This document shows positions 1 to 17,373 of a stretch of 64,000 bases of DNA, in pieces. The notes below the pieces were generated by a model. It was not told where the DNA came from. It made no database searches and saw only the letters and a list, made by a program, of their open reading frames with translations. The stretch spans positions 496,001 to 560,000 of the forward strand of contig CM065885.1 of NCBI GenBank assembly GCA_033439255.1, written 5' to 3'. The translations under genes and the position numbers were made by a program. This DNA is from Hericium rajendrae (Eukaryota; Basidiomycota; Agaricomycetes; Russulales; Hericiaceae). Position 1 is the first letter of the stretch. Each line of letters opens with the position of its first letter.

Positions 1-3000
1 CGGCAGTTTTGTACGGATCGTTCTGCTGGCCTGTCGATGATCCTTGGTACAACATATATGCCTAGAAATGATCAGTAAGAGACGGAATTGGAACAACAAA
101 TCTTAGGACATACTTCATCGATCACCAAGACTTTGCCAACTGTGGTTGCCAATATCGCACTCGTGTTCTTCTCCGATTCGCCCAACACACTCCCGATGAA
201 GTCAGCTGGGTTCTTGACGACAACTGTCCAAAGAAAGGTATCAGAAATACAGCACGGGTTTTGGTGTCAGCAGACTAACCTTCGCCGTTGCTGAGAAGCG
301 CCAAATCGACCAAGATTTGTCCATAGAGCTTTGCGACGCTTGTCTTGCCAGTACCAGGAGAGCCCAAGAATACGCGATTGAGCGAAACGGCTATGGGTTC
401 CTTCTCTTGCAGCTCGCGCCGATAGTTCACATCGATTAGGTCTATGAGGTTCTGTACCGAGTTCTTGACACTTTGAAGCCCGATGAGGTCCTGAAGCTTC
501 CTCCAAGCAGCGCTCTTCACAATCGCAAGAGATGGATCGGGGCCTATCAGGTCTTCCTTCAGGATCTCGAAGTCATTAGGCTCAAGGCCCTCCTTCCGCT
601 CCTGGACCAGTCGCGCTGCCTGGCGTTCAGTGATCTTGTCGAGCATGTTCTGCAAGGCCCTCGCATTTCCAAATCCTTCGCGTCCGCGGCCCCTTCCTAG
701 GCGACGCACGGCAATGCGGCTGTACAGACCACCGAATCCGTCTTCGACCTTCATGCGGCCCGAATACTTCTTCTCAATGCGCTTCTGGAGCATGAACAGT
801 AATTCTGGATCTGTGTAATCTGCGAATTGCAGTCTATATGGGACTCGACTTGTGAGGCCAGGATTATGCTCGAAGAACTTTTCCATTTGCTTATTGTAAC
901 CGGCTAGAATAAAGACGATCTTGCCGACGTTGTTCTCCATCTCGGCCAGCAGGTAGTCTAGAACTTGGCTTCCTTGGAAACTGTGCTCGCCTGTCAACTG
1001 GTAGGCTTCATCCACGAACATCGTTCCGCCACCGGCCTTGAGGATCTGCTCGATTTGTTTCTTGATTCCGGGCACGCCATCGTTCGCTAGACGAGAGCCG
1101 GTGGTCTCAATGAAGTCGTCTCCAGGGAGCACGTCAATGGAGGCAAGAAGTTTGGCATACCGACGTGCGACAGTCGTTTTTCCTGTGGACGAGTTAATTC
1201 ACCAAACGTAACCAGGACTAATCGGAACTTACCTGTCCCCGGGTTTCCGAGCAAGACAATATTGAATCGCTCTTCCTTCAGTGATGTGCCTTGTCGTTTG
1301 GTGACGTCAACCTTGGCTTTAATGCGGAGGATTTGCGCCTTGACATCCTCCAACCCGGTCATGTCCATAACGGCATCTATGTGCTCGTTGATCGCACCTT
1401 CGACGTCCTTTTGCCTTCGCCATTCAGTTTCTGCAGGTGAAACAACCAAGGGTTCCGTGGGCTCCGACGGGAACCGTCTGTCATCTCTTGGGAGAGACGG
1501 TTGCGGTTGCGGATGGGGTTGTAGGTCCACGGTTTGGGGCGTTGGCGCCTCAGTCTCATGCGGCATGTTGTCCGTTGGTGTTGCAACGGCGGCCGCCCTC
1601 TCGTTCCTCGATTGTGCATCCTCCAGGTCCTTCTGTTTCTGCGCTAGGGCAAGCCGGCGTTCCTCGGCCATACGAGCGTCTTGAACTATCTGCCTTTCCG
1701 CAGCGATCTGCTCCTCCAACTGGGCAATTTGACGTAAATGGTCCCGCTGTTCAGCGTCTCGCTTCTGTTGAAGATCGTATTCCTTCTTCTCCTTCTCTTC
1801 AGCAAGTTTATCTTCCAGATCGCATTTCTTGCACGAGACTGGCGCATTGTCGCGACACTTCCAGGAGCGCACGTGGCCCTTCAGACACTTGTCGTACGTG
1901 ATTTTGTCGCATGCCATCTTCGAATGGTCGCTTATCTGGTGGCACTTGAATGGACACGGATGACCGCAAACGAGCATGACGCCACTATAAGGCAAGATGG
2001 TCAGATCTATAGCTATTGAAAGCGACGCCAAGAGCAGTCATACCAAGGTTCCCTGCAGCCTCCATCGGGGCACTCCTCGTCGAAGTCTACTGGTCGGGCC
2101 AGCACTGCTGTGCGGGTCCAATGGCGCATGCACTTAACCGGAAGACCATCGTATATGTGACAGCCTCGCTTGAGCAAATCGAAGAGTTTATTCCAGAGAG
2201 CCCTGCCGTCAGGATTTCGCGCATTCAAAAATGTGTCCGAGTTCCCAATCATGATCAAACCATCGCGTGCGCGGGACAACAGGACATTCAGACGTTCGGG
2301 CGCGTACATGAACCCTATGTCGTGGTTCGAATTGCTCCTTGTAAGGGAGGCAATGACGATGTCGCTTTCTTCTCCTTGATAGTTATCTGTATAATCCAAG
2401 TCAGATATACATCACGAATTCAAGTGTTCGACAAACCTATAGTGGACAGCCGAAGAGGTTTCTTTGCCGCTTTTGCAGTTGCCGCTGGTATCAGCCCAGC
2501 ACGTACTAGATCATGCGAGTCCAAGTCGCTGAGAACAGGATCGGTATCGTCTTTCAGCTCCTCTTGCAGTTTATGCAATTGCGCGAGGTATGGAGTCAAC
2601 ACAACGAGCTTATCTGTGCCATAGCCTTGCTGAGCCAAGTAACGAACGATCTTCAAAACCATCCTGGCTTCATGCGTGTTTTGCTTTGACGACACAGAGC
2701 CGATGTCTCTTCGATCGGCGATAGCAGGGGTATCGTCTTCGGCATGGTCATGAGTGATGAAAACGACGTTGTCCTGAATGCCACGGATATCAGAACGGCC
2801 CTTCGTCCCATCCGCGTCGACAAGCTCCGGATACGTCAGCTCGCGGATGAAGGCTGATATTTCTGGTCTCATCCGATGCTGCTTTGTTAACGTTTCGTGA
2901 GGATAGCCGTTCAGAACCAGGCGCTCGAAGAGGGATCGATTCAGATTGTAGCCGTCGCCCTTCTCCACCGTAAGGAGGTAGTTGTTCACTTTTGGCCGCA

Positions 3001-5439
3001 ACTGCCTATAGGAGATATGGTCAGGACGTTTTTCGTAGGAGACAAAATTTTCTGCTTACTTGTGATCACCGATGAGGATCAACTGCTCTGTATTTGGCCC
3101 CAAAGCCGTCAGGGCATGGGACTCCAGAATCTCTCCTGCTTCTTCTATCAAGAGCACACCAGGCGATGCAGCCCTGATGTGTTCAAAATACTTGGCCGCA
3201 CCAGTCGTCGTGCACGCTATGATCCGAGCGTTGCGCAACACCACTGACACGTTCTCGTCAAACGCCCGGTCGACATTTTCCTGTCTCTTGTTGTAGATGC
3301 GGCCGGAGGCGAAGATGGCATCGACGTGTTCCTTCAGGATCGCTTCTTTCCAGGCAGCATGTAAATTATCACGCGCGTCGCGCGTCATATTCCAGATATC
3401 CGAAGCGTCCTTGACGTGAGCTGCTTGTTTGAACATGCCAGCGTCTTGTCCCTTCAGCCAGCGGTCTAGCAGATAGTTGGCCTTCACGTCACGGTTTTTG
3501 GCGCCGACCCTGCGCATCCCGCCATCATCAGACTGAGGGACCTGGAATGCATCGAAGAAGTCAGGTTCTTCGAATTCAAGGTGCTGTGCGAGATATTTAT
3601 GCCGCGTAGATGCCTCATATTGATCCCAACACCCCCGAAGCATCTTTAGGGCCTCGGTCAGACTGGATCGAAGGTTATCGATAACGCCCCAGTGCATCCT
3701 AGTAAATTTTGGAGCGTTACGCATGCGGTGCTGCAAGAGGAGAGGTTCCGTCCTAGGCGTTGATTTGCCACCCAATCGAACGATGTCATTCTGTGCGATA
3801 CCGATGTCTAAAAGATCTTCGAGAAACTGATCAAGAGCGTGGTTGGTGTAACAGCAGATCATGATGGTCTGACGAGTGGAATCGTGAATCGCCTTGGCTA
3901 GTAATGCGCCTATGAAAGATTTCCCAGTACCTTCATAGACATAATTTAGATGCGACAATGACTACAAGATTGAAGCTTACCTGGAGGACCTTGGATCAGC
4001 GAAACCCTCTGCATTAAGCCGGACAAGACAGACGAAGCCTGCGATGGGTCGAGTATAATGGATCGTGTGGTACCAAGAAGTTGGTGTAAGTCTTGAGCAG
4101 GGTTGTCCTGTAAAGCGTCGACCAAGGTAATAGGGTAGATAGACGGAGGGTATAACAAGCTTCCGTTGTTCCAAAGGAATAATTCCTCGTTAAGCGGCAT
4201 CGTCTGGACATTCTGGAGGGCCTTCAAGACAGGTTCATAAGCGAACATCGGAGTGTTAATGAAAATCAGCCTGATGTGGGGAGCCCCCTTTAGCACGACT
4301 AACGCCTTCTTTGTACTTGCCTCACCATCGAATTGCAAGACTATTATAGGCGGGTTTTTGGCCAGTAGATCCACATCGCGGTAGACGCTCGGGAACGCTA
4401 CAACTTTGCCGTCGACAAAAAGACAGACCATGGAATGGTGCGGCACCATACGATAATTGTCCATGACGTGTTTTCGCCTTTGGTCAGTCTTCACATTCTT
4501 GAATTGCCACATGTCATGTATGCACTGAAGCCGGATACCCCATTTGCAGTGCTTGGTATCGTCCGGTCCGTCGTAGATGCCAAGCACCTTCAGATGTTCC
4601 AAAACCAGTCCGCGATGACGACGCTGCTTTTCTCCGAGGGCAATACTAAGCTCATCGCGCATCTCACATATCATGTCCTCGCGAAGAAGCCGGTATTGGT
4701 TGTCGAGATATGAAACGACGCGCCTGTCAACGCTCTCATTCTCCAGATCGGCACTGGTACGTAAGTACGGCCGTTCCTTCGACTGTATCTCATCTGTGGT
4801 GGGGAAAATGGCGATGTCGTGGAAGTCGACAAAGTCGTTGTCATGTCTGCCTCCTGGATAATAGTCCCCGTCGACCACAGCGCCCGTACCACGTGTTTCC
4901 GTGATGAGCTTGATTTTGTGACCCAAAGCACGCGTGGCAGCTTGTGGAGAATCGAGAAGAAGTGTGATGACAGTGGAATCCTGAGAAAGCTCGCGGTATG
5001 GCTTTGAGTCGTCGTCAGGAAGCGAGATCAACTGCAAAAGAAGCCATGCAAAACAGCCCTGTGCGGAATCCTGGAGCTGCCTAGACCTGAATGCTTGCGT
5101 GTATGCATCCCAGAAAAATGGAGCCTGAGGGTTGGCGATGCAAAGAATGATATCCTGCAGGATCTGACCACCGCCAATGTCTTTCAAATCAGCCTCTCGG
5201 AGATACGAGATAAGTCGAGTGGCGTCGCCGTTGAGGTATGGGAGAGTGAGGTCCTGTCGCATGACCTGCTGCAAAGATGAAAGACCAGCCTTGCTCGCCG
5301 TGATCTTGTGGATGCAGGCGGCCTGGTCGGTCTGCGTACAGATCGCCTCGACGAAGCGTTTCCCGTTGGATCGGGTCAGCTGTGTTTGTCCATATAAGAT
5401 GCCGTCCAAGAATTTGGAAAGCTTGGAACCGCGGTCCAT
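1..5439 (-). CDS. NFX1-type SF1 helicase / zinc finger / CbbX AAA fusion (gene A, partial)
   Basis: Giant P-loop protein, cut by the left window edge after about 1689 residues. Exons by splice signals (minus strand): 3981-5439, 3060-3930, 2437-3005, 2044-2386, 1233-1984, 280-1182, 114-223, 1-61. Order of parts: N-terminal ~470 residues specific to fungal homologues; Upf1-like helicase with GPPGTGKS, VLLIEEAGE, GDHKQLRP, QHRMRPEI, NYQGEES and NVLLSRAR; NFX1-like Cys/His region (CGHPCPFKCHQ, DHSKMAC, CKKC); charged coiled coil; CbbX-type AAA1 (GNPGTGK, FVDEAYQL); AAA2 (GSPGTGK, VIDEAYML), where the window ends. All helicase motifs look catalytic. Human ZNFX1 and NFX1-family helicases act in RNA surveillance and small-RNA pathways; a similar role is inferred. 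It is the upstream member of a tandem pair with the gene at 6629-13583. Start chosen as the first ATG of the long first exon, matching its paralogue. Confidence 0.9.
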
Positions 5440-6628
5440 GAGTCGAAGATCTGTTCAACAAGGTATGATGTTACTCGAAAGAAAGTAATGGTGCAGGAAT
5501 ACGCACGGTTTGTGGACGATGTAAAAGGGGCTGAGACAGAATGCTCGGACGCTAGGCATCGAACAGATATTTATCTGCATTGTCCGCATGTTGTCCTCGA
5601 GTCCAGCTGTATACGTGGGGACGAAGGCCGCGGCGATCGTAGCTACTATTCATAGAATAAGGAGGATGATATCACCTCGCCGTTAATCACATTTGACGGG
5701 CGAGCCATCCGATAAGCTCGTTTTGGTCGTGGTTTTGCCGCCTCACGTACTGACCGCCCTTGACCACCTCGACTGCGGAAAGACATGGTGGAACATGAAC
5801 CCTCGACTGCGGAAATGAGGCATCGTGAAGCATGGAAAGTCAAAAAGAATGGCCCGGAAATGATGCACTGGAAGCGCCTTGTCGTGACGTACCTCCCTAG
5901 CGTGTCGCGGACTACCTCAAAACAGTTACTCCGTAGCCTAAAGGTGGATTTTTCGTTACCCTCACGGGTAGTATCGCGTCGCCTCAATCAGAAGCTTTCC
6001 ATTCGACTTCGCAACCATATTTTCTGTCATTCAGGCCATGCAGATGATCCTGCATGACAGCGACTTTTGACTCAATGTGCCAGCTGCCGCAAGTCAGGGC
6101 TTCGAGGTAGAACAACTATTTTTTGCGTCAGGTCAGCAGAGAATACTTTGTTTAAACCTCGAATCGCACCAGTAGAGACCAATCACAAACCAATTCTATC
6201 GTGTTCGAGCTCTGCCTTACTAGAGAAAAGTGACTTGAAGGAAGTTGAGTGCCAGAAAGGCTCCGCCAGGACGAGTCGGTGCTGGCAAGAAAGATTACTG
6301 TGTCGGCAAATTCCGAACACCGTTTTACCCATCCACTCGTTAGCATTCCGATTGCACGACGCTACAGTGAGTGTATTAGCAATCGTAGGAACAAAATCAT
6401 ACTCCTCTCAATACTCCTTGCTATTACACATCGATTGCTGCACTGTCACATATTATTATTTTTTAGAATACTTAACACAGCCACCTTGTGGTGTCTCCTC
6501 ATTACCGATGACCTACTACTATGCGGGCTCCTGCGCGACTCCTTATTCTGGGTTGCATGAATGCACCAGTCCCTGCCCTTCTACACCATCCTGAATCTCT
6601 TTCAAGGTCTCCTCTTCGTCATCAGGAC
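5440..6628. other. Intergenic, promoter side of gene A
   Basis: About 1.2 kb between the stop of gene B and the start of gene A. It must carry the gene A promoter and gene B 3' region. A 15-bp direct repeat (cctcgactgcggaaa) occurs twice near 5767-5817. Short open frames here show no family signature or codon pattern, so no gene is called. Confidence 0.6.
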
Positions 6629-9600
6629 CTAGATCTCGGAGAGTTTCTGCTCATATTCGTCATCTTCAACGTTATGAGTGTCCTCGGTTTCCTCGACTTC
6701 CGTATCGGAGCTTGAGCTACTGCTCGAGCTTGCACTCGCCTGAGGGGATCCGTCTGAGGGAGTGGTTTCGTCCAAGGGCTTGGTGGGAATGGACTTGACG
6801 TCTTTCGACAAATTGCTGCATCTCTCAACCCGATCCTGCAGCATGTCCCGAGCACAGGAAATGGCATCTTCCAGGGACAATCGCATCTCTGTCCCGGGCT
6901 CGTTTACATTTATCCCCTGGAACGCTTTGCGAAGCATCTGTTTAGACAGCGCTTGCACGTCGCGTGCATTACCCCAGGACGGAAGGGCCGAAAGCATGCT
7001 GATAACGGTCGATAGTTGGCCGGAAGATGAAGTGTCGTTCAACTCGGGAAGTGTGATACCATTCTTCCTCAGGTCCTTGTCCAGCAACTCCAGACATCGC
7101 TCGGGCCTCATGTTCTCGAAGACGATTTCCTCTGGGAATCGGCTTGACAGGCCTGTATTCACCTGCATAAGCTTGTTCATCTCCTGGTCGTATCCCGCAA
7201 GGACGACAACAATCTTTCCCCTGTACGCATCAAGTGTCATTATAGTGACGATTTCATCGATGGCTTCCTTGGCGTAGAGCCCTTCGCCAAGCCTGTACGC
7301 CTCATCAACGAAGAGAACTTGACCCAGAGCCCTTTCAAAGACTTGTCTGGTCTTGGGTCCCGTGTGGCCAGTGTACTTCCCGATGAGGTCCGATGCTGAA
7401 ACCTCCTGCACTGTCGGAGAAGATAGGAAACCCATGTTGTAGTAGACCTGTCCCATTTTCCGTGCAGTGGTTGTTTTCCCGGTCCCTAAGAGTGGATATG
7501 TGTAAGCCGTATGTTCCAGTATTAAATTACGATAAGATCTTACCTGGAGGACCTTTGAAGACAAAGCTCGTCGGGATCAATACAAGTGGATCTTTTCCCT
7601 GCGCCTTGGCAACACGCGCAATGTGTTGATATTCGTTCAGCTTTCTGACGATGTCCTCACAGCCCACGACGTCTTCAAACAGTTTCTTGAGATTGTCCGC
7701 GCCCTGCGTGACGCGGTCAAAGTCCGGGTCGAAGTCCCATGGCTCAAAGAGGACATCGAATGCTCTCTCCTTGACTTGCAAGACAGCTTGGCGGGACTGG
7801 AAACGTGCTTTGGCCTGGCTTAGCAGGTTCTCTACGGCGCCACCATTTCCGAAGTTCTGCTTGTTCCGTGCACGGTTCAGGACCTCCATTGCCACTGTTT
7901 TGGCGGCATCAGTCGCTTGAAGCTGCTGTTGTTTCAGCTTGATCTCAAGGATGTTCTCTAGTTCTGATTCCGTAAAATCTTCGAATTTGAAGGCATCCTC
8001 CAATGCAAAGCGTCGAGACAGGCCCGGGTTAACATTCTAAAGATGTCAAAACAAGGTGAGCGAGGCGATCTACGCTAGGAGGCGTGGCATACCTGAAACA
8101 TGGCTCGCATCTGAGGTTCGTATCCCAGTAAGAGGACACATCGATCTTCTCCAGGAACATTCTGCACCTCAGCGACAATGGTATCGATGACTGCCGTTTT
8201 GAATGAGTCATTTGAGCCTCCAGATTCTGATGGTCTCCAGAGCATGTATGCCTGAGGACATGGGTGGACGCAATGAGTTAGCTGCGCGTCCCGATTCTCC
8301 ACGAACAATGTATGACTTACTTCGTCGATAACGAGCACTTTTCCGACGGTGGTATGTAAGATACGCTTGGTGTTGCTCTCAGATTGACCCAGGTATGGCC
8401 CGATGAAATCCGCGGGATTTCTGATAACAACTGGATAATAATGATCAGCTCGGACGCATACGGTGAAGTGATGATGTACAGACCTTCGCCATTGCTGAGA
8501 AGACCGAGATCGACGAGAATTTGACCATAGAGTTGAGCGACAGTGGTCTTCCCCGTACCAGGCGACCCAAGGAAGACACGATTGAGTGAGACAGCGATAG
8601 GTTCCTGCTCTTGTAACTCTCGTCTGTAATTCACGTCGATGAGATCGATAAGGTTCTGGACAGCCTCCTTGACAGCCCCAAGTCCAATTAGACTCTGAAG
8701 CCTTTTCCAGGCAACGCTATCTGTGGCGGCAAGAGAAGGATCGGGACCGATGAGATCCTCTTTCAGAATGGCGAAGCAGTTGGGCTTGAGTCCGAGTTTT
8801 CGCTGCCTTACGATGCGATCGGCCTGTCGCTCGGTAATCTTGTCCAGCGTGTTCTGTAAAGCCCTCGCGTTTCCGAAACCTGGAGAGCCACGATTGCGAC
8901 CTACGCGGCGCACGACAATACGGCTATAGAGTCCCATGTATCCGTCTTCGACCTTCATACGATTCTCGTACTTCTTTTCAAACCATTGGCGAAGGATCAA
9001 CAAGAGTTCGTTATCCGTGTAGTCGTTGAATTGCAGCTTGTAAGGCACGCGGCTCATGAGACCAGGATTGTGCTCGAAGAACGTCTCCATCTGTCGGTTA
9101 TAGCCAGCGAAGATAAAGACGATCTTCCCGACCTTGTTCTCCAATGCAGTGAGCAAGTAGTTCAAAGTCGAGTTACTGGTCAATTGGTATGCCTCGTCGA
9201 CGAAGAGGACCCCACCGCCATAGGCTTCGATGCGTTCTATATCCTCTTTGAGCCCAGACAGGCCACGATTCGTGAGGTCTGCACCACTGGTCTCCACAAA
9301 TTTGCTCCCTGGGACAACGTCCATGGATGTGAGGAATCGGGCATAATGCCGAGCTATAGTGGATTTTCCTAGATGATACCCAGACCACACCGATCAATAT
9401 ACACTAGCGTGACATGGAAGCCAATGGCTCACCTGTACCAGGGTTCCCCAGCAATACAATGTTGAAGCGCTCGCTTTTTATTGATACACCCTGCTCTTCG
9501 GTAATGTCGATTTTCGCCTTGATACGGAGCACTTGCAACTTCACTTGTTCTAACCCTATCATCTCCATGATGGCATCGATATGGGAATTGTCGGCTTCCT

Positions 9601-12600
9601 CTCTGTCTTTCTGTCTCTGCCATTCGACTTGTGAAGGGGATGCAGACAGCGCGAGAGGAGGTTCTGAAGGGAAATGCCTGCCATCCTCCGGGCAAGGCGG
9701 TTCTGGAGCTGATTGCATCGCATCGCTCGCAGGGGCAGGGGCGTCGTCCTTTGGCTCGGGTTCTTCGGGTTCTCCGGGTTCAGAGATGCCTTCAGTCTCC
9801 AACTGGCTGTCCACTGCCCCCTCGTCGACATCGGCAGACTCGGAAGTCGCCTTCTGATTCTTCGTCTTTTCTGCCTCCAACGCCTTCTCCTTCTCCTGGA
9901 AAGCGCGTCTCCGTTCCTCGGCACTCGAAGCATCTTGACGAACCTGCCTTTCGGCAGCGATCTGTGCTTCGATTTCTGCCATTCTACGCTTGTGCTCATA
10001 TTCCGCATCACGCGTCTGCTGTAGCATAAAGTCACTTCTCTTCTTGGCTTTTTCCTTCTGACCATGATAGTCGCATCGTTTGCATGACACTGGCTTTTCC
10101 TGGTGGCATTGCCATGACTGGATATGTTCTTGCGCGCATTTGCTGGTCATGATGTGGTCACAGGCGACCTTCGAATGATCGCTGATTTGGTGACACCGCA
10201 GCCTGCAGGTGTGTAACCGACAAGGAAGGGGAGAGCCACTGTAATCCATAAGTTACGAACAGCTAGTTATACAGTGTGAAATACGTACCATATCTCCATA
10301 CATCCCCCTTCGGGACAGTCGTCGTCAAAGTCCTCTGGCTTCGAGAGGATACCCTGGCGCTGCGGATGTCGTACACACCTCACAGGGAGTCCACGATACA
10401 CGTGCCCATCGCGAGCCAAAAGACGGAAAAAGCGCGTCCATATGTCGCCGTCGTCGGGAGTAGAAGCCTCAAAAAGTGTGGTCGAATCTCCAACCATGAT
10501 CAGGCCAAGACGTGCTCGAGATAGAAGGTTGATCAACCAGGTGGAGTTCCAGTCGGGTTCAGCAGCATTTCTCGCAAAGGAGGCGACGACGATGTCACTC
10601 TCTTCTCCTCGATAATCATCTACCGCTCACAGTCAGTCATCGTGAGATATGCGCCAAAAGCTGAAAAGACAATACCTATTGCAAAAATGCGAAGAGGCTT
10701 CCTCATGGCCTTCGCGATCCCTGACGTGCATTGGCCGGCACGGACGAGATCGTGTGAATCTAAATCCTTCAAGACAGGATCGTTCCCAGCATTTACGGTC
10801 TCCTGCATTTTCCGCAGCTGAGCCCGGCAGGGCGTCAGCACGACGAGCTGGTCCGTCCCGTAACCATGCTGCGCGAGGTATTTGACTATTTTGAGGACCA
10901 TCTTGACTTCAAGCGCATTCTGCGCGGACCTGCGTGCTTCGGCTGCATCGCCAATGGGAGGCGCCTCATCCTCAGCGACTTCCCGATCAATGAAGACAAT
11001 GTTGTCTTTCAGACCGCGTAGATTGGCGCGCTCCCTAATCTCTTCGGCATCGACCAGGTCTGGATATGCCAGCTCTCGAACCAGCGCTGCGATCTCCGGA
11101 CGCATTCGGTGCTGCTCGACTAGTGACTCCTGTGGATACCCCCGGAGAACAAGTCGTTCGAGGAGAGAGCGATCCAGATTGCTACCGTGAATCTGAGGAC
11201 ACGGGTAGCTGCGAAACGTAAGATCAGTTACGATAGTGAATAAAATCAGGGAGAAAAAATGCATACCTATGATCCCCGATAAGAATCAACTGCTCAGTCT
11301 CACATCCAAGCGCGGACAGAAGATGGCTTTCCGGCACCTCAGTCGCTTCGTTAACAACAACCACGCTCGGCGGCGCAGCCCGGATCCTCTGCCAATGTTC
11401 CGCCACCTGAAGAATGGTGCAGGCAATGACGCGCTTGCCCTGCAGGGCTGCACTACTACCGTTTCCTTCCAGCTCTGCTAGACGCGAGTTGTAGATCCAG
11501 CCAGCGGAGACCAAAGTGGCAACACGCTTCTCAAGTATCGCATCCTTCCACTTTGCTGTCACAGAATCGCGAGTGGATGAAGGCATTCGCCAGATCTTGG
11601 AGGCTGCGCGGACATTGCACTCGTTCTTGAACATTCCAGCATCCTTGCCGCCCATCCATCGATCTAGGAGGTAATCCGCAGTGACGGTCTCCCCGTTCTC
11701 GTCGACGACTTTCATCCGGCTGTTGTGAACGAACTGAGGGACTTGGAAAGCTTTCAGAAACTCTGGCCCTTCAGACTTAAGGTATTCGATCAGCGCGCAA
11801 TTCTGCAAAGGCGAGGTATACTGCGTGAAGGCTTGTTCGAGGGTTTCCAGCGCCTGGTCAGACGCTATCTGGCAAGCGCGATCATCGTCTGACTGCATCT
11901 CAGGGTTGTGCGCGAAGGGTTGAACATGAGAAGCAAGCCTCCCGAGAATTATGGTGGCACCTTCAGAAATGCCGACTCTCCGAAGACCAGCTACGAACTG
12001 GTCTACGGCGCGCTCGGTATTACAGCAGACCAAGATCGTCTCTTCGGTAAGGGTATGTAGAGCCTTAACAAGGAGACCACCGACCAGCGACTTGCCCGTA
12101 CCTGAATAGCGATTGTTAGTGTGATTGCCATCGAGATGAAATGGAAAGACGTACTTGGAGGGCCACGAATTAAAGCGACCGTCTGCGTGAGACCGGAGAT
12201 AAAGGCTGAGACTTGGGAGGCATCCAGCACAACAGAAGACGGAAGATGGAGCAGGCCCTTAAGGTCCTGCGTCGGGTCTTCCAACAAGGATTGAACCACG
12301 GAGTTGGGGAAGAACGGCGGACTGGCCAACGAGCTCATTTCATTCCAATTGAGTAGCTCCGACGTAAGCGGTATACCCTTCGCATTTTGCAAGGCCCTCA
12401 AAACTGGCTCATAGACGGCGGTCGAGGTGTTCATGAGCACTACTTTGACACGGGATGCCACATTCAGAGCACGCAGAGCCTTCTTCGTGCTGGCGATGCC
12501 GTCGAACTGCAGCACAAGGACAGGAGGCTTCTGAGACAACAAATCCGTGTCCCTATAGACCGAGGCAAAAGCGACGGGAGTGCCGTCCACGAAGAGACAC

Positions 12601-13583
12601 GCAAAGGATTGATGCGGGGTTATCTGGGGGTTGTTGAGAACATGCGACTTGCGCTGCGTCTGCTTGACGTCCTTCAGATCGTCCAAGTCTTGTTTGCACT
12701 GTAGCTTGACACCCCATGGGCGTCGGCTGTCCTCCGAGCCATGATACAAGCCGGCTAATTCGAGCTCTTCGATGGCCAGTCCAGAGTGAGAAGCTCCCTG
12801 CCCGTCCGATAAGAGACGCCATTCGTCGCATAGCTTATGGAACATTTCATCTCGTAGACGCCAGAACTGCTCGTGGAGGTGTGCACATTCCCCACTCGGG
12901 TCTTCAGAAACGCCGAGGCTTGCATATGCGTGCAGAAACGCCGGTTTCTTCGACTGCATCTCATCGATTGTGGGGTAGATGGCAATATCCTGGTAGGTGG
13001 TGAAGTGGTTATCGTGTAGAGCGCCGGGAAGGAAGGTGTTGTGGGCGGTGTCTCGAATGCGGTGGCCGAGGGCCCGTACTTCGGGGCTGTCAGTGCCAAC
13101 AAGCACGTCCGTGATCGATAGATCCCCGGCGAGCGGACGGTACTGAGATCCCAGCGCCTCAGGAAGGGAAAGTAGTTCCAGCAGGAGCCAAGCGAAGCAT
13201 GCTTGGGCGGCTGGTGATAGAACATGCGACCGTGAGGCGCGCACGAACTGATTCCAGAAAATTGGGGGCTGTACTATCTGGAGGAAGATGTGACGGAGAA
13301 TTTGACCTGTGCAGGGCTTCTTGAGCACAGGGGATTGGAGATAAGAGAGAAAATGAGTCGCAGTGCCATTGAGGAATCGTGGCGATAGGTCTTGTCGTAA
13401 TGCAGAGCGCAGGGATGAGAGACCATTTTTGCTGGACACGAGACGGTGCAAGCAGGCGGCTTGGTCGACTTGGGCACAGATCGAATTCAAGAAGGCATCC
13501 TTGTTCGAACGACCCAGAGTCTGTTTGCCGTCCAGTATGTCGTCGAAGAGTTGAGAAAGTCTGAGAGAATTAAAATGGCTCAT
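6629..13583 (-). CDS. NFX1-type helicase-like / zinc finger / triple CbbX AAA protein (gene B, complete)
   Basis: Ten exons (12155-13583, 11267-12101, 10676-11208, 10289-10619, 9433-10238, 8484-9368, 8321-8430, 8093-8251, 7544-8036, 6629-7485) give 6438 nt, 2145 aa, with every junction in frame. Parts: N-terminal region to ~470; helicase core ~470-1000; NFX1-like Cys/His region ~1043-1095; coiled coil ~1110-1170; AAA1 ~1250-1530 (GNPGTGKS, LFVDEAYQL); AAA2 ~1550-1850 (GSPGTGKT, VIDEAYML); AAA3 ~1855-2060 (GPPGTGKT, LFVDEAYRL); Ser/Glu-rich acidic tail. The helicase keeps GPPSTGKS and QHRMRPEI. Its Walker B reads VVVVNEATE, GDHKQLRP has become GDHSYPCPQ, and motif V is DYRGEES, so unwinding is probably lost while AAA activity may persist. 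Introns match gene A in position and phase. Probable RNA-surveillance or defence role is inferred. Confidence 0.92.
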
Positions 13584-14435
13584 GACACTACAACTCCAAG
13601 CACGTCAGCAAGAAAAAGAGGCAAAATAGAAACTGTTCTTACGAGGGGGTCGGGAGGATAAGAACGCGTTGCGGTTCCAGTGTGGCCGCGACATAGCAGC
13701 TAGTTATATGAAAGACGGACAATGATGGTCCACGCGCCGGCCACACACTTCACATGAGGAGTGGCCGATCTTTCACTGCGAGTCAAAGCAGGAACTGGAC
13801 CTTGCCATTGTCCGAAGCTTCTTAGGTCATAGGATTATGCACGAACGAACGACACGTACTTTGCAGATAGGATCTGACGTCGTTTATCTAGATGAGGTGT
13901 CCCAGCATTCTTGTAGGAAGCATTGCCGATGGAAAGGGCCTGCTGGGTGTTGAGTTTCCTTCGTTTCTTGACCTCTAGCTCGCCGTGAGACGAGAGAAAC
14001 TCGGAGCTGTCTCCGCCGACTGGTTGACGGCCATTGACCTGCAGTTATATCATAGTTACATTCTGTTACGCTTTGCCGACATAAAAGAAAGACAGGCGGG
14101 ACATCGAGCCGTCACAATCGACAGTGGTGGACAAATTCGTGGTCGCAGCGTTTCTGAGTTCTCAGAGGAGTCAGTCCATGTTAAGCGCCCATAAGTAACG
14201 TCCCAGAGTCCAGGCGCGCGTTGCGGCATTTGCCGATCTGAGATCTGGTTTGTTACGCGTTGTCTTGAAATAGAAGGGAATCGCAACATTTATACTCTCT
14301 TGCCTCCATCTAAACATTAGTTGTGACCTTCGCAAGAGACATCGGGCTGATTTATAGCCTACGTACGTTACCATGGCTTTACCTGAAATTTGGAAGCTAA
14401 GATCAACGATAGACCTGTCCAGCTGAGCGAGTGCA
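13584..14435. promoter_or_regulatory. Divergent intergenic region between gene B and NUP84
   Basis: About 850 bp separating the start codons of the minus-strand gene B and the plus-strand nucleoporin gene, so it holds both promoters. No clear TATA box, repeat or RNA gene was recognised. Short frames around 13985-14374 are not supported by any protein signature. Confidence 0.5.
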
Positions 14436-17373
14436 ATGTCGAATGCATTGTACGCGTCCTGCGCTGAAGTTTTAACCTTGTGCCAGTCACAGAAAGACGA
14501 TCTTGAAGCGCTCTTGGATCCAGAAATTGGCTTCGCACCCCGACTTCGTCAGATATGTCAAGACCAGTAAGAGTTGTTTATCCTCTCGTGCAGCTTTCCT
14601 TGACGCGTTCGATGCAGGCTCGCCGACTTGGAGGACAGTGGAGAGGTGTCACCAGAAGAACTAGACGCACTGAGAATGGAATGTAATACCTGGGGCTTAC
14701 TTCAGGCCCTTATGCCGTATGTTTCATTCACGTTTCGTTCTCGCGCACCCCTGACACGCGCAGGCAGTGCTCGCAAAACAGAACCAGGACCACAGCCGAC
14801 CGCTCACGCACTCTTATCCGAAAACCCCTACACACCAACTGCCACACTCGCGCAGGCCGTTATGAATGCGTCGCGCACACTCACCGAGCTCGTCGTCGTC
14901 CGCGAATGGCTGCACGAGACCGCGCCTCAGCCGCCACATCCAGAGGCAACGACCGGCTATTGGAAGTTCACGAAGCACCGTGTGTTGCAGGCACTTAGGA
15001 CGGGCGGGCATGGCGCGGATGGGCTGGTGCAGGAAATGGATCCCGATGCGCCCACGCGAGAGGGACGGAGTCTTGCGGCGGATGATACAGTGAGTTTCGT
15101 CTTCAAAAGGTTTCACAATGAATCTCTGATGGTCTTTCGCATGAAAGAGCTATGAAAAAGCACTGGCGCAGACGCTATACGCGTATCTGCGAGCTGGGCG
15201 CCTTGACGATGCCGTAGAGCTATCCAGACGTGCCCACCAACCATGGCGCGCTGCAAGTATACGCGGGTCATTACTGTTCTCATGGAGGGCCATTTGTACG
15301 CCTTTTTACTACCGCCTTTTGATTCATGTTAATTGTTTGTTAGCCACAGAACCGCGCGATGAAGAGGCCATGGAGGACGGTGAAGACTACGACGCGTGGC
15401 ATGGAAATAAGCGGCGGAAACTTTGGAAATCGACGTGTACACGTGCCGCTCTGGATGTAGGTCCGCAAATTCCACTGTTTAATATCGGTACTTACTCGTC
15501 TCCGCAGAGCCGCCTGTCAGACGCAGAGCGCGCGCTCTACGCTTCCCTCGCTCCCTCAACACAAACCGCCACAGTTCTCTCCTCTGCATGTCGAACATGG
15601 GAAGACAAACTATGGGCCGAAATTCGAGTGATTTGTGAAGACAAACAGAGTACAACGCTGGAACGCTTGGGAGGCTGTTTCTGGGAAGGCGGGATTGTGG
15701 CTGTGGAGAAAGGGTTGAACGAGCTCTCGCCAGAAGCGGAGGAGGAAGAGGAGGAGAGCTGGCGCACGGAGGTTGAGCAGGTGCTGCAGTCACTGGCGAA
15801 TGTCTCTGTCGAGGATGGGTAAGTTCAAGTCACTCGAAAATGTGAGATAACTTGACGGTGCGCAGTCTCCCTGCAGACAATCCCTTCCATCTATCGCAGC
15901 TACACATCATACTGGATCGTACGGACGCGTTGTTGGACGACTTTGCGTCACGCCTGCGCACCGGATTGTACGATCCGCAATCTCCAGAGTAGGTTAACGT
16001 GCTTTCCGTGCGCGTCGATACTCAACTGTGCTTGCAGATACCCAACCATGACGCGCTTCTTCGCACATCTCTGTCTATACCTCCAAATGATCGACATTGC
16101 TGTTCCCCCACTTGCTACCCAAGTCGTCTTGGAAGCCTACCTACAAGTCCTCGAGGTCTGCAAATCCGTCTGAATCCGCATTGTTCACAGCTGACCCCAC
16201 CGCAGGCTGCCGGCCAACGAGATCTGATCGCAATGTACGCCGGCGCGCTGGGTGACAACGCCGTCGAGCGGTACGCCCTCTTCTTGACCTCGCTCGAACT
16301 CAGCGCGTCGCTCGACGAGCGCCGCGCCGCGCTGCACCGCGCGCGCGAGCACGGGCTCGACATGGAGCGCGTCGCCGTCGTGACGGCCGAGCGCACGATC
16401 GAGCGGGCATTCGACGCGCTGCCACCGCTGCGTGGCCCGCTGCCGTCGATCCTGGAGCTGCCTGCGCCGACGGCGGACGCGGAGATGCTGCTGCTGCGCT
16501 CGATCGAGTGGACGACGTTCCTGCCGAGCACATACGACACCGCGCTGGAGCAGGCGAACGTGATCCTGCGCTACTTTCTCGGTGAGTGCATTGTGCGGAC
16601 CGGTGGAGATGCGCTGATAGAAGGGGCTACAGCGGCGGGGCGCGTGCATGTCGCGAAGAAGCTGCTCGAATTCCTCCCGGCCGAGCTGGCGTCGATCAAC
16701 GAGCCCGAGGAGCGCGCGACGGAGTACCTGAACTACAGGCAGTTCTTCAACATCTGGGCACTCCTCGACCGCGTCGTCGAATGCCAGGCGTTGGAGACGC
16801 CGCATATGACGCGGGACACACGCGCTTCATGGCTTCACGATTATAAGGTTGGTCCTTGCTCTAGGATTTCGTCTGTCTTTGCTCAGATGCTTCGCAGACC
16901 CTGATCGTACAGGCGCGCGAGCAGATCGTAAAGCTGCTCACGACAGATTGGTTGATCGCGGAGTCGGATATAAACGGAGGTGCGTGTTTCAACATGCTTT
17001 TCGTATCCACAGGCTTTACTCACCGACTGCTGAAGGGGACCGCCGCCTGCGCGAGCTGACACGTATCAGACAGCTCTACGTACCAGAGCTCATCATCCGC
17101 CTGCACGCGATGCTTGTCAACTCGCGCTCCAAAATCCCAGAGTGCGTCTTCCTCGTTATAATCACCGTCCTGTGCTGACTCGCTCGGTGTCTTAGAAATG
17201 TCAAGCACGCGCTGGAGCTCGCGAACATTGTCGCGGACTCGCGATATAGGCTCTACGAGGACTTTGCGAACCAGAACGGGCGGAAGCTCGGCGACTATCT
17301 CGGCGCGGTGCGGCAGGCGGTGTTGGCGGGTCTGGAGAACGGCGGCTCGGATCCGTTTAAAGCGATAGCTTAG
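14436..17373 (+). CDS. NUP84: Nuclear pore protein Nup84/Nup107
   Basis: Scaffold nucleoporin of the Y-shaped (Nup84/Nup107-160) complex of the nuclear pore. Twelve exons: 14436-14566, 14618-14716, 14768-15089, 15148-15295, 15344-15456, 15508-15818, 15866-15988, 16038-16155, 16206-16847, 16898-16979, 17036-17141, 17196-17373; they sum to 2373 nt, 790 aa, about the usual length for fungal Nup84. Family hallmarks: all-helical protein with RLRQIC near the N terminus, the LADLEDSG..TWGLLQAL segment, the LRAGRLDDAVELSRRAHQPWRAASIRG helix pair around residue 200 (an ACE1-type element), a basic-acidic linker (GNKRRKLWK) and the C-terminal ANIVADSRYRLYEDF segment. No cofactor sites are expected. It converges on the cyclo-ligase gene with 70 bp between stop codons. 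Confidence 0.93.

Follow-up and report, generated by a model that had tools for sequence, protein, structure and literature searches.

Paired helicase–AAA fusion genes with unequal helicase halves in Hericium rajendrae

The window analysed here is a stretch of 64,000 nucleotides (nt) of the Hericium rajendrae genome (C8:496001-560000, contig CM065885.1), and searches beyond it covered 46,767,965 bases in 19 contigs, which we refer to as C2, C7, C8 and so on. Its short introns and its gene content are in keeping with a filamentous fungus. At its left end lie two adjacent genes on the minus strand, A and B, each encoding a long chain. In both, a ZNFX1-like superfamily 1 (SF1) helicase is followed by a short Cys/His region, a linker resembling a coiled coil, and then three AAA modules of CbbX/EccA type. 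The two genes are tandem paralogues derived from an old, intron-bearing duplication of one gene; they differ in their helicase halves, whose motifs appear to have been kept in A and to be degenerate in B, while the Walker motifs of the AAA modules are intact in both.

The two genes and their duplication

Exons of both genes were placed by eye and then checked by script (Table 1). Neither model contains an internal stop, all 18 introns are of the GT-AG type and 50–69 nt long, and each of the nine introns of A has its counterpart in B at the same position and in the same phase (1, 2, 1, 2, 1, 1, 0, 0, 1). The chance of such agreement is about 2e-29 under a crude uniform model, and thus negligible. 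As a control we used a ZNFX1-type gene on C7, which has 12 introns in the aligned part, none of them at the four A/B positions that fall there; two flank the position of A/B intron 1 at distances of 3 and 4 columns, the C7 junctions having been placed by eye. A first-pass annotation of the locus had already proposed an intron-bearing tandem duplication on the strength of seven matching introns, and this is confirmed: the seven are those that fit inside the window, and two more lie to the left of it, where gene A, unlike in the bounds given earlier, continues for about 2.0 kb beyond the edge. Exon length differences between A and B are 30, 36, 36, 12, −54, 18, 0, 0 and 0 nt, with 444 nt in the last exon. 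The six values listed previously (18, 54, 12, 36, 36, 30) are exact, but that they are multiples of three, which had been offered as further evidence for duplication, follows from the equal intron phases and is therefore not independent of them.

Overall, 1202 of 2115 aligned residues are identical between A and B (56.8%). By region the identity is 44% (N-terminal region), 49% (helicase), 51% (Cys region) and 68%, 78% and 73% (AAA modules 1, 2 and 3, hereafter AAA1–AAA3). The proportion of synonymous differences (pS) is 0.70–0.91 across seven regions, compared to 0.15–0.37 for nonsynonymous differences (pN), both frames being open. Synonymous sites are saturated in five of the seven regions and nearly so in the other two; the duplication is therefore old, and only the contrast in nonsynonymous divergence (dN) is usable, not regional dN/dS. 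An assembly duplicate or a second allele is ruled out by the same saturation together with the overall identity. The introns of the two genes resemble each other in sequence no more than shuffled ones do (z −0.99 to 1.42, nine introns).

Table 1. Genes A and B and their parts, in positions of the window; coordinates of domains include introns
Feature	Position	Strand	Details or basis
Gene B	13583-6629	-	10 exons, 6,438 nt coding, 2,145 aa, frame open throughout
Gene B exons	13583-12155, 12101-11267, 11208-10676, 10619-10289, 10238-9433, 9368-8484, 8430-8321, 8251-8093, 8036-7544, 7485-6629	-	gene model
B N-terminal region, 450 aa	12234..13583	-	44% identity to that of A
B SF1 helicase core (AAA_11/AAA_12), apparently degenerate at motif positions	10399..12233	-	Pfam, comparison with ZNFX1 and the C7 gene
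B Cys/His region	10073..10317	-	ZNFX1 alignment, match to A
B exon 5, unbroken over most of the Cys/His region and the linker up to AAA1 Walker A	9433..10238	-	gene model
B AAA module 1 (CbbX-type) with both Walker motifs	8755..9583	-	Pfam, motif alignment
B AAA module 2	7737..8754	-	motif alignment
B AAA module 3, CbbX-like stretch KYTGHTGPKT	6833..7736	-	motif alignment
Gene A	5439 leftward past the window edge, end C8:493999 (window -2001)	-	10 exons, 6,960 nt coding, 2,319 aa
Gene A exons in window	5439-3981, 3930-3060, 3005-2437, 2386-2044, 1984-1233, 1182-280, 223-114, exon 8 from 61 leftward	-	gene model
Gene A, remainder of exon 8, with exons 9 and 10	left of window	-	gene model with neighbouring stretch
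A N-terminal region, 460 aa	4060..5439	-	without Pfam family; residues 202-284 weakly aligned (18 bits) to ZNFX1
A SF1 helicase core (AAA_11/AAA_12), motifs apparently kept	2166..4059	-	Pfam; closest solved relative ZNFX1
A Cys/His region	1822..2072	-	ZNFX1 alignment; Cys/His matched in B
A exon 5, unbroken, same span as in B, residues 1081-1331	1233..1984	-	gene model
A AAA module 1	551..1383	-	genome match, motif alignment
A AAA module 2, first part	1..550	-	gene model
A remainder of AAA module 2, AAA module 3 and coiled-coil-like C-terminal tail	left of window	-	gene model

Domain order and the AAA arrays

Each protein has Pfam matches to AAA_11 and AAA_12, to AAA in three stretches and to AAA_lid_6 in two. 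In phmmer searches of the PDB the best match was ZNFX1 (9q9z) both for the N-terminal and helicase half of A (274 bits, E 2.9e-80) and for the helicase half of B (142 bits, E 1.2e-40), Upf1 being the next solved relative. The AAA half of A matched CbbX best (3zuh/3syk, about 1e-37), followed by EccA1 (4.7e-31); this search was run with the array of A, to which that of B is 68–78% identical. The order of helicase, Cys/His region, linker and AAA modules in one chain is thus as first described, and a domain search, which had been named as the check on the CbbX-type modules, does find them. In the Cys/His region (residues 1056-1150 of A) all 11 Cys and all four His are matched in B. The description of this region as NFX1-like is borne out in part: the ZNFX1 alignment extends into it in both copies, but it has no Pfam zinc-finger match in A or B, the NFX1 finger (PF01422) included. 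A genome-wide search at E≤1 likewise placed no PF01422 match at the pair, and the only one over the cut-off is in a gene at C9:1513k. We dropped the absence of this finger as a difference from ZNFX1, since the ZNFX1-type gene on C7 has no match either. The linker and the C-terminal tail of A have a fraction of 0.69–0.80 of E, K, R, Q, A and L, a composition in keeping with a coiled coil.

The two halves meet within exon 5, which measures 752 nt in A and 806 nt in B; in both copies its frame stays open between the Cys region and the Walker A motif of AAA1, itself split by intron 5. This continuity is direct sequence evidence for a single chain, short of complementary DNA. A misreading of two genes, one for each half, as a single gene is extremely unlikely given this exon, and SF1 helicase fusions are moreover reported for the CbbX/SpoVK/EccA clade of AAA proteins in a 2023 preprint (PMC10659427).

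Walker A, Walker B and a sensor-1 GY are present in all six modules of the two arrays. An Asn precedes the Arg finger in every one of them, with Arg at Asn+6 in all six and at Asn+4 in none, and a sensor-2 Arg is found in four, namely AAA1 and AAA3 of both copies. AAA3 carries a CbbX-like YxGxT stretch in each copy (QYVGQTGPKT in A, KYTGHTGPKT in B), which we take to be the pore loop; AAA1 has no such stretch in either, and the position in AAA2 is occupied by Tyr in B and Val in A. Two of these features were considered as peculiarities and set aside. Arg at Asn+4 is also absent from all five aligned bacterial modules and from three motif matches in L043 and L045, the only ones of four bacterial and archaeal loci scanned to give any, and Tyr, whose loss from the YxGxT/S stretch of AAA2 in A might have been a sign of decay, is also wanting in some bacterial modules.

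Within the genome all 12 matches to the AAA array of A at E≤1e-5 fall on the pair; the N-terminal and helicase half gave 14 matches, nine on the pair and five on C7, C2, C12 (two) and C14. No relative of the array was found in the viral contigs searched. Bacterial and archaeal genomes searched with AAA3 yielded four relatives among 131 pattern matches, and among these four loci the helicase query matched only L044, from a Halioglobus metagenome-assembled genome. This match is weak (13969-14868; 24% over 358 positions) and lies some 5 kb away from the CbbX-like AAA match, on the strand opposite to it.

The chains end differently, with 214 residues after AAA3 in A and 67 in B. The tail of A, which matches no Pfam family, closes with two Cys and one His in a stretch C..GF.W......GYRCAGG.H (L009 6002-6136) that is the single match to itself in the genome at E≤0.01 and is absent from B.

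Unequal helicase halves

With the C7 gene as outgroup in a relative-rate comparison, 63 helicase positions share their residue with C7 in A only and 23 in B only (544 columns, p=1.9e-5), compared to 35 and 29 in the N-terminal region (357 columns, p=0.53) and three each in the Cys region (34 columns). In seven motif windows (80 positions) the counts are 21 and 2 (p=6.6e-5), and motif and non-motif parts of the helicase differ in this asymmetry (Fisher p=0.027). The windows, which we take to correspond to SF1 motifs I to VI, share with C7 in A and B respectively 8 and 7 positions (I), 8 and 3 (Ia), 8 and 6 (II), 8 and 5 (III), 7 and 6 (IV), 11 and 7 (V) and 7 and 4 (VI). In B, motif II has Asn in place of its first acidic residue, motif III reads SYPC for KQLR with ten residues missing behind it, and motif V has Arg for Gln; in SF1 helicases such motif positions bind Mg-ATP or couple ATP to RNA. 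The comparison with ZNFX1 9q9z agrees, at 274 bits for A compared to 142 for B. As read from these alignments, A appears to have kept its helicase motifs. B appears to have lost motif residues, chiefly from Ia, III, V and VI, and from motif II its first acidic residue; it is likely a pseudohelicase. The first-pass annotation missed both the degenerate helicase of B and the shorter stretch after its AAA3, and with such a helicase in B a reading of the pair as two equivalent machines is not supported.

The arrays were compared in the same way against three bacterial modules. The A-only and B-only counts are 13/10, 15/12 and 19/9 for AAA1, 3/12, 2/9 and 1/12 for AAA2 (p=0.035, 0.065 and 0.003) and 9/12, 8/12 and 11/12 for AAA3, and when five bacterial modules are scored by majority the counts become 11/8, 2/4 and 5/7. 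The AAA array of B shows no decay comparable to that of its helicase. A reciprocal decay, in which A was losing AAA2 as B lost its helicase, was considered and rejected, as the majority rule (2 versus 4) does not bear it out.

Several observations weigh against B as a pseudohelicase partner of A, the explanation set out below. B is also the faster copy outside the motifs (42 A-only and 21 B-only helicase positions, p=0.011), and the C7 outgroup is distant, with exon joints placed by eye. Two stretches are retained in B, GKS in the P-loop of motif I and QHRMRPEI in motif IV, and binding of ATP or RNA may therefore survive. Of the AAA modules, AAA1 leans toward a faster B in one of three tests (19 versus 9, p=0.087) and AAA2 leans in the opposite direction; AAA2 of both copies, moreover, has NGG for the NAR of a sensor-2 Arg, and some of the motor sites may thus be inactive. 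Finally, most of the C-terminal tail of A is absent from B, which could mean that B is a partly decayed gene.

This last point, with the lost motif residues, the small deletions in the helicase and the lack of a credible remnant of the tail downstream of B (a single match of 19 residues, E=0.39), would suit a duplicate on its way to becoming a pseudogene. We consider this improbable, because the 2,145 codons and nine introns of B have stayed intact since a duplication whose synonymous change is saturated, AAA1 and AAA3 of B are not significantly faster than those of A (six tests, p 0.087 to 1.0), and every Cys and His of the Cys region has been kept. Alternatively B could still be an active helicase that tolerates its motif changes, the two genes being simply redundant, as the retained P-loop, QHRMRPEI and SRAR of motif VI would allow and as the Pfam scores of B might suggest (AAA_11 73 bits, AAA_12 72 bits, cut-off 27). 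This has in our view slightly less to recommend it and is distinctly improbable, given the substitutions in motifs II and V, the altered and shortened motif III, and a loss that is strongest at precisely the motif positions.

Proposed function and known relatives

A role for B as a pseudohelicase next to an intact A leads to what we consider the best explanation overall, in which we have about even confidence: A is a helicase–AAA remodeller and B its pseudohelicase partner, both derived from the old tandem duplication. The helicase half would find an RNA or an RNA–protein particle, and the AAA array, like CbbX or EccA, would pull on one dedicated protein client at that particle. Such RNA-directed (RNA-guided) remodelling of a protein client is the most likely activity of A because of the analogy with CbbX and EccA, motors with dedicated clients, and with ZNFX1, an RNA-linked helicase. 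B would be a partner or regulator of A through the array common to both, supplying AAA motor subunits and perhaps a static grip on RNA or on a partner; it probably lost RNA unwinding along with the motif residues and kept the Walker motifs of all three modules. RNA binding, protein remodelling, any complex of A with B and the loss of helicase activity in B are steps that we infer. A stricter form of the proposal makes A and B an obligate two-chain machine, with A as the working helicase, B as a dead helicase holding RNA or a partner without moving, and the three AAA modules of each chain closed into a single ring of six, by which a protein on a marked RNA particle would be remodelled. With three modules per chain, either a two-chain ring or stacked rings may form. 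We regard this form as improbable; if true, it would be a helicase/pseudohelicase pair with a composite AAA motor.

The first-pass annotation had linked the pair to RNA silencing. In its strongest form this would make the pair part of a silencing or antiviral machinery, like animal ZNFX1 or the fungal helicases SAD-3, Hrr1 and RnhA. The helicase half is indeed closest to ZNFX1 among solved chains, the genome holds an RNA interference (RNAi) kit (matched fragments of Piwi, 10; RNA-dependent RNA polymerase, RdRP, 29; and RNase III, 7), and SAD-3, Hrr1 and RnhA act in fungal RNA silencing (PMC5384783). The location of the pair does not support the link, since none of the matched fragments lies near it and the only matched RNAi gene on C8 is a Piwi gene near C8:867161, about 358 kb from gene B. 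The identified neighbours are a Nup84/Nup107 gene to the right of the pair, on the other strand, and an acetamidase/formamidase gene to the left. At least as good candidates for such a role are a separate ZNFX1-type gene on C7 and an SF1 helicase beside an RdRP gene on C14, and a search at E≤1 with the RZ finger model (PF20173) detected nothing on the pair. Nothing found here ties the pair to RNA silencing, and we consider membership in that machinery rather unlikely.

The gene on C7 is the best candidate for the ZNFX1 of this genome. It scores 286 bits against ZNFX1 9q9z, matches PF25396, the ZNFX1 domain located ahead of the helicase (33.7 bits, cut-off 27), as well as AAA_12, and has by eye a long Cys-rich stretch; PF25396 is not found in the N-terminal 457 aa of A, which match no Pfam family at E≤1, nor among the 25 of 26 families listed for B at E≤0.001. 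The RZ finger of the C7 gene (C7:793430-793626; L036 ~7930-8126) appears as two adjacent half-matches of 25.6 and 24.0 bits, each under the cut-off of 27, with an apparent reading-frame change seen by eye within the finger, whose halves match the RZ model separately; this may stem from a sequencing error, an unseen intron or real damage.

Other helicase and RNAi genes were seen in passing. At C14:319001-328900 (L037) the SF1 helicase (AAA_12) and RdRP genes are about 3 kb apart on the same strand and form a candidate silencing gene pair. In L039 (C2:733001-742900) and L040, a weak match to RNase III (27.3 bits against a cut-off of 27) lies about 2 kb from a Piwi gene on the opposite strand, followed some 11 kb beyond by an AAA_12 helicase. 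SF1 helicase fragments at C9:524k, 528k, 572k and 576k (L041, L042) fall about 4 kb apart in two groups, perhaps as tandem helicase duplicates.

Among known systems, tandem modules of the same AAA type behind a different N-terminal part also occur in Streptomyces WP_329167054.1, which differs from A and B in having two P-loops found, not three, and in being annotated as a right-handed beta-helix protein, not a helicase. On the Streptomyces plasmid NZ_CP109179.1 (L047) the gene for a beta-helix-annotated protein with two such modules adjoins an S8 serine peptidase gene, an arrangement that resembles that of EccA and type VII secretion.

The best solved relatives of the array of A belong to the CbbX/SpoVK/EccA clade (3zuh, 3syk, 9lur), with which it has in common the GY of sensor-1, an Asn ahead of the Arg finger and the CbbX-like YxGxT stretch of AAA3. 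It differs in having three modules per chain, in the missing sensor-2 Arg of AAA2 and in the absence of the Arg that CbbX and EccA1 carry at Asn+4. The preprint describes eukaryotic members of this clade that carry SF-1 RNA helicase domains, predicts for these fusions a role in RNA processing and attributes to the characterised members narrow, dedicated chaperone roles (PMC10659427). The type of fusion is thus already in print, with a predicted role only, and is not new; what is new is the asymmetric loss of helicase motifs between paired copies whose AAA motifs are intact, and our search of the open-licence literature found no tandem fungal pair with a degenerate helicase. One worn helicase next to two arrays with motor motifs is a natural separation of functions between the two halves of the protein.

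SAD-3, Hrr1 and RnhA resemble the pair as fungal RNA helicases of silencing, by description only; the part of PMC5384783 at hand gives them 999 to 1,231 aa and an NF-X1-type finger in RnhA, and mentions no AAA array. RNF213, a giant AAA protein of innate immunity that has an RZ finger in common with ZNFX1 (PMC12075652), resembles A and B in scale and theme only, there being no RZ match at the pair. ZNFX1 itself is described as having six NFX1 fingers in addition to an ARM-type domain and an RZ finger at the C-terminus (PMC11959080). Both copies align with its SF1 core and first Cys-rich unit, and A also, weakly, with an N-terminal stretch, whereas A and B have a single Cys/His region, no RZ match and three AAA modules, and the helicase motifs of B appear degenerate. 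The pair bears on whether the ZNFX1 type of helicase, known from animal immunity and small-RNA inheritance, was coupled in fungi to a protein-remodelling motor, and it has the look of a side branch whose AAA motors stand in the place of the C-terminal fingers of ZNFX1.

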